The position numbers were made by a program, and so were the translations under genes. A stretch of DNA of 64,000 bases from Tilletia caries (taxonomy: Eukaryota; Basidiomycota; Exobasidiomycetes; Tilletiales; Tilletiaceae). The notes under the pieces were generated by a model that was not told where the DNA came from, made no database searches, and saw only the letters and a program-made list of their open reading frames with translations. Positions 54,374 to 54,945 of this stretch are shown here, one piece after another; the first letter of the stretch is position 1; every line of letters begins with the position of its first letter. The stretch covers positions 248,001-312,000 of the forward strand of contig JALUTQ010000007.1 of assembly GCA_032718865.1 (NCBI GenBank), given 5' to 3'.

Positions 54374-54461
54374 GAGAATCCGATAGGGTCAAGTTCGGTC
54401 GCCGCGAATGAGGAACAGTGGAGAAGAATCCGATAGGATCAAGCGCGGTCGCCGCGAATGC
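54374..54461. repeat. Short tandem duplication of the H3 3' end
   Basis: About 38 bp that include the last codons and stop of the H3 gene (54,423-54,461) have a second, slightly diverged copy directly downstream in gene terms (54,374-54,411), both with GGTCGCCGCGAATG. Confidence 0.8.
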
Positions 54462-54945
54462 GTCGGGCGAGCTTCATGTCCTTGGGCATGACGGTCACGC
54501 GCTTGGCGTGGATGGCGGCCAAGTTGGTGTCCTCGAACAGGCGAACGAGGAAGGCCTCCGAAGCCTCCTGCAGCGCGCCGATAGCCGCCGACTGAAATCG
54601 AAGGTCAGTCTTGAAGTCCTGCGCGATCTCCTTTACGAGACGCTGGAAGGGGAGCTTGCGAATGCACAGCTCCGTGCTCTTTGGAAAGCGCCGGATCTCG
54701 CGTAACGCGACCGTGCCCGGTTTGTACCGATGAGGACGCTTGACTGTGAGATGGACGCATCGTCAACACCAAGGAAGAAGACCGGCAGGGAAGGACAACT
54801 CACCTCCGGCAATTCCCTTTCCGGGTTGAGTTGGGTTGGTAAGGGCCGCAGGATTGGTAAGGGCCGCAACCTTCTTCGTCGAGAGGACAGCCCGAGGGGC
54901 TTTGCCGCCGGTCGAGCGTCGCGCCGTTTGCTTGGTACGAGCCAT
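54439..54945 (-). CDS. Histone H3 variant with K9R and remodelled tail, carried by the CACTA element
   Basis: Nucleosome core histone of 148 residues; exons 54,945-54,804 and 54,743-54,439 with a 60-bp GT-AG intron. The tail begins MARTKQTARRSTGGKAPR, so residue 9 of the mature protein is Arg (codon CGC), not the universal Lys. The usual K18-T32 stretch with the second ARKS (K27) is replaced by a longer segment with a doubled AALTNP and PGKGIAG, then VKRPHRYKPGT. The K36 equivalent is kept and K37 is Arg. The fold is complete (STELCIRKLPFQRLV, IAQDFKTDLRFQ, LFEDTNLAAIHAKRV, RRIRGDRA) with C110A and Q55P-type changes. There is no loop-1 expansion, so it is not a CENP-A. A TATAAG lies about 100 bp upstream. 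Unlike its neighbours it has no frameshift or truncation. Confidence 0.9.

Follow-up and report, generated by a model that had tools for sequence, protein, structure and literature searches.

The closest described system is the TET/JBP cargo of fungal DNA transposons, a chromatin-level passenger carried across superfamilies (KDZ, hAT, EnSpm, Plavaka and others), with mostly undisrupted frames and a proposed role in the escape from silencing (PMC12730594). The same histone residues that concern us here were mutated in Neurospora, where R8 and K9 are both required by the methyltransferase DIM-5. There, ectopic H3 K9R or K9L expressed beside wild-type H3 lowered DNA methylation (for K9R, resistance came from 3/8 transformations and 3/3 of those were hypomethylated), and R8A abolished DIM-5 activity in vitro with a partial effect in vivo (PMC3248561). 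Here we describe a histone H3 gene in a 64,000-nucleotide stretch of the Tilletia caries genome (the window; C7:248001-312000, C7 being contig JALUTQ010000007.1) that encodes arginine instead of lysine at residue 9 and lies inside a 14.1-kb CACTA-type transposon at 44486-58628, whose inverted ends begin with CACTG and are complementary over 27/27 bp. Variants of this kind accompany three superfamilies of DNA transposons in the same genome, and the genes suggest that altering the residue of a silencing mark may be a way of escaping silencing.

Histone H3 variants carried by transposons

The window H3 gene is encoded on the minus strand (54439-54945) and gives a stop-free spliced product of 148 residues. 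Its fold matched PF00125 (E 1e-37, C7:302454-302744), the closest solved sequence was a histone H3.3 chain (E 8.6e-62, residues 1-148), and the core is without a CENP-A type loop-1 insertion. By eye, the position of the intron matches that of an intron in the canonical gene L011 and in other variants; exon 2 lacks the second intron that L011 has. The splice is supported by the annotation of sister-family proteins in T. controversa and T. laevis, which show an analogous one. The tail preceding VKRPHRY, ARTKQTARRSTGGKAPRAVLSTKKVAALTNPAALTNPTQPGKGIAG, has 46 residues compared with 34 in L011. It retains the equivalents of K4, K14, K23 and K36, has lost K18, reads ARRS at 7-10 and contains no second ARKS, thus lacking the ARKS9 plus ARKS27 pair of canonical H3. 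The residue 9 codon, CGC, differs from AAG or AAA by three bases. The first-pass annotation had described a complete spliced H3 with R9, without the second ARKS and with a tail 12 residues longer, inside CACTA ends. The splice and terminal repeat analyses bore this out, the four lysines that it had listed were all found on reading the spliced product, and its remark that CGC is not a one-step change from a lysine codon agrees with the count.

Canonical tails with ARKS at both 9 and 27 were found in two genes, L011 (contig C39) and L017 (C32, its tail interrupted by an intron). We take these to be the host H3 genes, from their tails and from the absence of transposase there; none was met at either locus, in a Pfam scan that covered one L011 frame and no L017 frame. 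An end motif of the KDZ-a family lies ~10 kb away from L011. As both canonical tails differ from those of the variants, the window tail cannot be regarded as the normal tail of the host, and a CENP-A identity was likewise rejected, the CENP-A-like gene with its long insertion being a separate locus (L023). At residues 87-90, L017 reads SAVM and L011 reads SAIG, which we take to be H3.1-like and H3.3-like signatures of animals; this suggests that T. caries may have distinct replication-coupled and replacement H3 genes.

A histone family search of the genome (38.1 Mb, 40 contigs) gave 65 exon-level matches; an initial homologue search had been dominated by long tandem H3 models. From the main loci, which were fetched, we obtained 21 non-canonical copies whose start could be read, and motifs in them were counted by eye. 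This set leaves out L032-L036, L039 and L040 (L033, L034 and L035 being visibly broken) and the partial matches at C4:685098, C7:1791588, C15:264973, C22:417662, C32:66672, C32:66836, C40:243632, C5:1414907 and C3:622907. The 21 copies form eight tail families, seven of which accompany transposases (Table 1). Residue 8 or 9 was altered in 20/21 copies (to R, Q or F at 9, or as R8K), the ARKS27 motif was present in 0/21, K4 was retained in 21/21 and K14 in 19/21. A lysine near position 27 survives in an altered context in the hAT family (EKSPS), L012 (AKTVA) and L014 (LKTPS). Six of the eight families (CACTA-a with the window gene, CACTA-d, KDZ-a, KDZ-b, hAT and L012) carry AAIG at residues 87-90, presumably the signature of animal H3.3, a replication-independent H3; CACTA-b reads GALA and CACTA-c GAIA.

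Some H3-like sequences deserve separate mention. The CACTA-b cores (L027-L031) have one extra loop-1 residue (QDVIRTD versus QDFKTD), which resembles, on a smaller scale, the alteration by which CENP-A is recognised. L032 (C30:729107) and L035 (C5:2013901) form a further dispersed pair of H3-like sequences, in which a stretch has been inserted at the N-terminus, ARTKQVAQKYGPD...QTARKSTGGKAARK; L032 keeps an ARKS motif, shifted down the tail, and L035 is the broken member. A very divergent H3-like protein starting with ARTKCVARHRSQ or ARTKCVARYRSQ, with a residue other than lysine at position 9, was found at L036 (C27:532706), L039 (C33:751089) and L040 (C34:1809700).

Next, we considered the elements around these genes. 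Transposase_21 was detected in the window, L014 and L019, and relatives of the window transposase in L027 (57% identity) and L028 (66% over a 503-residue stretch). The KDZ domain (PF18758) was detected in L013, L018 and L026 and the hAT dimerisation domain (PF05699) in L020; the remaining KDZ-a and hAT copies were assigned to their repeated units through DNA identity. All transposases found next to H3 were of the DNA-transposon type. Clear inward-facing pairs of CACTA ends at least 10 kb apart enclosed an H3 gene in 6/6 cases, and no histone match lay inside the shorter pairs (0 in two of ~6 kb, 0 in nine of <2 kb). L009 is not among the six; it has a perfect end at C4:282770 and a doubtful, two-mismatch one 28 kb off. 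A hAT copy at C40:1519690-1529376 contains a K9F H3 between inverted ends CAAGGCTCGGCAA, with an 8-bp duplication, CCGAGTCT; the hAT end pattern TTGCCGAGCCTTG had 416 genome matches at up to 1 mismatch versus 60 for its control. The KDZ-a unit of 12.2 kb occurs at C19:338458-350618 and C30:491463-503643 with 99.2% identity, sharp ends and unrelated flanks, and no terminal repeat or duplication was found at these two copies. Its right end is present at 5 sites, 4 of which have a KDZ-a H3 within ~7-12 kb. In the CACTA-c, CACTA-d and KDZ-b families, transposase and H3 share one 9-kb locus; no convincing element ends were found at L012, L014, L018, L019 or L026. The window element, the long CACTA-end pairs and the C40 hAT copy place variant H3 genes inside mobile elements, as befits a transposon-encoded factor.

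Relatives were also found beyond T. caries. In a protein search with a profile built from the eight families, nine clusters named Tilletia appeared among the 120 matches listed of 7,989 scored; residue 8 or 9 was altered in 9/9 of them and ARKS27 was present in 0/9. The list is biased toward variants by construction, and no canonical Tilletia H3 stood among the matches listed under names. Six clusters match families described here, and their gene models are consistent with our splicing (P0088, P0246, P0247, P0248, P0249 and P0251). The other three come from T. indica; P0252 and P0267 have R9 and P0259 has H9. The four non-Tilletia relatives inspected keep ARKS at 9 (P0063, P0080, P0253 and P0256). 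Together, the other copies in the genome and these proteins, from T. controversa, T. laevis and T. indica, rule against the window gene being a single freak copy.

Finally, we studied selection on the copies. The ratio of nonsynonymous to synonymous rates (dN/dS), calculated on 89 core codons of 12 representatives including the two canonical genes, was 0.03-0.14 in 62 of the 66 pairs, with synonymous distances mostly of 0.5-2, which denotes purifying selection on the core; the other four pairs, each involving L014, were saturated and yielded no ratio. Within families, L028 is separated from L029 (CACTA-b) by 17 synonymous versus 3 nonsynonymous changes (neutral expectation rejected at p 6e-8), and L018 from L026 (KDZ-b) by 23 versus 8 (p 1e-8). 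An intact spliced protein was obtained from 17/21 copies, L013, L020, L021 and L027 failing, so that stops are lacking in most of the other copies. The splice acceptance pattern behind this count was too narrow for the second intron and was widened twice (3/21, 12/21, 17/21); L026 passes solely with L for V at the junction, and the C-terminus of L028 is longer. On this codon evidence, the product is maintained by selection, as judged by comparing families with one another and copies inside CACTA-b and KDZ-b.

In the tail, the changes are concentrated at residues 8 and 9. Over residues 1-17 of the eight families, positions 8 and 9 were changed at 8/16 family-sites versus 3/120 elsewhere (Fisher p 7.6e-7), position 9 alone in 6/8 families, and residues 1-7 and 10-17 were nearly invariant. 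Adding the three T. indica proteins gave 11/22 versus 5/165 (p 1.3e-8). Because R9 could be common by descent, each residue state was also counted once (4 versus 3, binomial p 0.005).

Table 1. Features of the window element, tail families of the variant H3 copies and long pairs of CACTA ends
Feature	Position in window, or members	Strand	Remarks
H3 exon 1	54804..54945	-	entire N-terminal tail; the intron marks the tail/core boundary
H3 intron	54744..54803	-	60 nt, GT..AG
H3 exon 2	54439..54743	-	alpha-N and histone fold
Residue 9 codon	54916..54918	-	CGC, Arg and not Lys
Left terminal inverted repeat	44486..44512	+	CACTGCCACCTTCGGTGGCGTTTTAGA; 27/27 complementary to right end
Right terminal inverted repeat	58602..58628	-	27/27 complementary to left end
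Putative target-site duplication, left	44483..44485	.	TAT
Putative target-site duplication, right	58629..58631	.	TAT
CACTA transposase region	47581..49763	-	two overlapping frames, Transposase_21 (PF02992) and DUF4218
Second open reading frame	57258..58202	+	34-35% relatives in CACTA loci L019, L027, L028
Passenger fatty-acid desaturase	51230..52177	-	profile 29-231 of 253; N-terminal part in other frame (frameshift or intron)
Passenger truncated protein-kinase domain	53332..53964	-	profile 1-111 of 263
Passenger GMC oxidoreductase, C-terminal remnant	55268..55828	-	28-residue match, below Pfam cut-off
CACTA-a	window, L009, L010		ARRS
CACTA-b	L027-L031		ARQS in three, AKRS in L027, ARKS in L030
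CACTA-c	L019		ARQS
CACTA-d	L014		AKKS
KDZ-a	L013, L015, L016, L024		ARRS
KDZ-b	L018, L026		AKKS
hAT	L020, L021, L022, L025		ARFS
L012 family	L012		ARRS; transposon-less as far as seen
CACTA-end pairs of at least 10 kb	C1:1593003, C7:292486, C27:885291, C34:984964, C39:778607, C39:1044828		

Readings of the variant histones

We consider it fairly probable, extrapolating from the genes to expression and effect, that the variants are transposon-encoded anti-silencing histones that act by substrate replacement at K9. The element would express its own variant H3 and the cell would assemble it into nucleosomes; AAIG in six of the eight families suggests that loading may be replication-independent and take place at transcribed DNA. 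Such nucleosomes would not be methylatable at K9 by host enzymes of the Clr4/DIM-5 kind. Judging from the K9L, K9R and R8A results in Neurospora, a tail with K9 replaced should give nucleosomes refractory to the mark, and by analogy the R8K tail probably would as well. Without the K9 mark HP1 could not bind, and heterochromatin would neither form nor spread over the element; K4, mostly K14, and K36 would stay open to active marks. The substrate of the silencing mark would be removed, rather than the mark erased. We also lean towards the broader proposal that, in a fungal genus with no detected DNA methyltransferase, three DNA-transposon superfamilies repeatedly evolved an H3 unmarkable at K9, a histone analogue of the TET/JBP that transposons carry in DNA-methylating fungi.

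The first-pass annotation had proposed a block of both K9 and K27 marking, and its K9 half is the one that survives. The canonical H3 genes elsewhere, the intact copies, the purifying selection and the R, Q, F and R8K states on three superfamilies all speak for it. So does the host machinery, with two Pre-SET/SET loci of the SUV39/Clr4 type, for which Clr4 and further H3K9 enzymes are the nearest solved sequences, and a single chromo-shadow domain of the HP1 type, as well as the fungal precedent (PMC3248561). The K27 half is weaker, given the lysines kept near 27 in some families and the 0/6 reported for ectopic K27L in Neurospora (PMC3248561). Profiles PF18264 (H3K27 enzyme) and PF12851 (TET/JBP) had no match in any control genome.

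Several points weigh against an anti-silencing histone. L030 (C39:797210-797574) is intact and has ARKS at 9, where the rest of its family has Q or R, the lysine being either ancestral or regained; KDZ-b accounts for the loss of K14; and no transposon family was found in the two scanned frames of L012, which stands without a transposon shown. Residue 8 was pooled with 9 post hoc, after the data had been seen, and the high variability of residues 18-33 indicates that the tail has indeed been relaxed to some extent. Recent copies in CACTA-a, KDZ-a and hAT show just 0-2 synonymous and 0-2 nonsynonymous changes, a number too small for constraint to be resolved now. The core tree joined CACTA-b and CACTA-c (98.9/98) and placed L011 on a branch of near-zero length, but its backbone is weak; the families are not fully independent and R9 may have had fewer origins than we counted. 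Passage of H3 between superfamilies, as Kojima inferred for TET/JBP (PMC12730594), is as possible as separate captures. The Neurospora precedent concerns R8A rather than R8K, and R8A acted only in part in vivo (PMC3248561). The DNA methyltransferase profile PF00145 had no match in the genome, with a control that matched 10/14 genomes, all prokaryotic, so that an intron-rich fungal gene was not strictly controlled; this agrees with the reported lack of DNA methyltransferases in Ustilago maydis, for which 2.26% methylcytosine was nevertheless also reported (PMC7862722). Furthermore, a genome-wide spread of the variant should harm the host, so a confining factor would be needed.

The main rival, and the best fit to K9F, is an enzyme trap in which variant tails would bind and block the host K9 methyltransferase in trans, so that a small amount of protein would de-repress transposons genome-wide, with no need for deposition at the element. 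Lysine-to-methionine histones block methyltransferases, and the hydrophobic K9F of the hAT family resembles the K9M inhibitors; the commoner solutions R, Q and R8K are, however, not known to act as traps. A tail poison would also find the histone fold superfluous, yet the whole fold is conserved, and we judge such a trap unlikely, even though K9L worked beside wild-type H3 in Neurospora (PMC3248561).

Less likely still are host-serving, domesticated H3 paralogues, amplified because transposons happen to carry them. Near-identical multi-copy units with transposase in three superfamilies, H3 in all six clear long CACTA elements and broken copies next to intact ones are at odds with service to the host, which would otherwise agree with the purifying selection on the core and the related proteins of the three other Tilletia species named above.

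Lower again in our estimation stands an aid to transposition itself, through open, transposase-accessible chromatin or a mark for the element's own transposase, the loss of K9 being secondary. The exclusively DNA-transposon type of the neighbouring transposases and the retained K4 and K36 equivalent would suit it, but it leaves the concentration of changes at 8/9 unexplained.

Neutral hitch-hiking of functionless captured gene pieces, with K9 lost through drift, is very improbable, for although the window element carries partial kinase and GMC pieces, 4/21 H3 copies (and L033-L035) are broken and recent copies show no measurable constraint, drift is disfavoured by the intact copies, the dN/dS of 0.03-0.14 between families, the p of ~1e-8 within two families and the clustering of changes at 8/9 between nearly invariant residues 1-7 and 10-17.

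The carrying element and its surroundings

A 20-base end of the window element had 51 genome matches at up to 2 mismatches versus 0 for the reversed control. TAT flanks both ends, although 3 bases are weak evidence (chance match ~1/64). The PF02992 match of the transposase region scored 31.1 bits against a cut-off of 28.6, and the DUF4218 match was under its cut-off. Miniature pairs of ~0.66-0.83 kb bear the CACTG ends of this element (e.g., C1:906853-907541 and C7:2420993-2421821), and a 32-bp tandem repeat lies between its desaturase and kinase pieces (53045-53201). Protein-kinase domains are also present in the hAT element (L020:6831-8087 and L025:6615-8384), with just 24-27% mutual identity to the CACTA piece. 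Many listed pairs of hAT ends are ~0.6 kb apart, as expected for miniature copies, and the pair at C3:618558-626952 contains the partial histone match C3:622907. Elsewhere in the window, a DEAD-box helicase is 98% identical to T. controversa over 91% of the query and 78% identical to T. horrida, in keeping with a member of the controversa/caries/laevis group. Open frames at 17810-22497 resemble a retroelement, presumably of the DIRS/Ngaro type, with a weak RVT_3 match below cut-off within 19896-21215 and a 3' end that, by eye, is repeated close by.

Comparison with known systems

Other transposon cargoes share parts of this picture. VANC of the Arabidopsis VANDAL transposons is likewise a transposon-encoded counter-silencing factor, but a sequence-specific protein and not a histone (PMC5735166, PMC10398659). 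The SET histone methyltransferases that HarbingerS/MuDR elements and a proto-Helentron carry also touch histone marks, as enzymes, in contrast with the unmodifiable substrate described here (PMC12730594, PMC4067079). Helentron-Cq-32A of Culex captured histone genes, in eight copies; these are fragments of H4 and of the linker-type H15, interrupted by stops and frameshifts, with no H3 among them and no hint of function (PMC4067079). The Neurospora histones were laboratory mutants, whereas ours are natural genes (PMC3248561). From histone H3.3, which it resembles in its closest solved sequence and in the AAIG that we take as the H3.3 signature, the window protein differs by R9, the absence of ARKS27, a remodelled tail and its location in a transposon.

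Among the open-access matches listed, we found no report of a transposon-encoded nucleosome subunit without the silencing residue; in the main text of PMC12730594 the word Tilletia is absent and the four places that mention histones are unrelated to transposon-borne H3. If our reading is true, the variants would be the natural counterpart of laboratory K9-mutant histones, with several solutions to one problem (R, Q, F, H and R8K), and one could then test whether the counter-weapon of transposons can be predicted from the silencing machinery of their host, TET/JBP being expected where DNA is methylated and unmodifiable H3 where it is not. The TET/JBP cargo is an enzyme that acts on methylated DNA (PMC12730594), and the cargo of T. 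caries is a structural histone in a genome in which we found no DNA methyltransferase. Counter-silencing cargo is an already known strategy, and the unmodifiable histone appears to be a new device for it.
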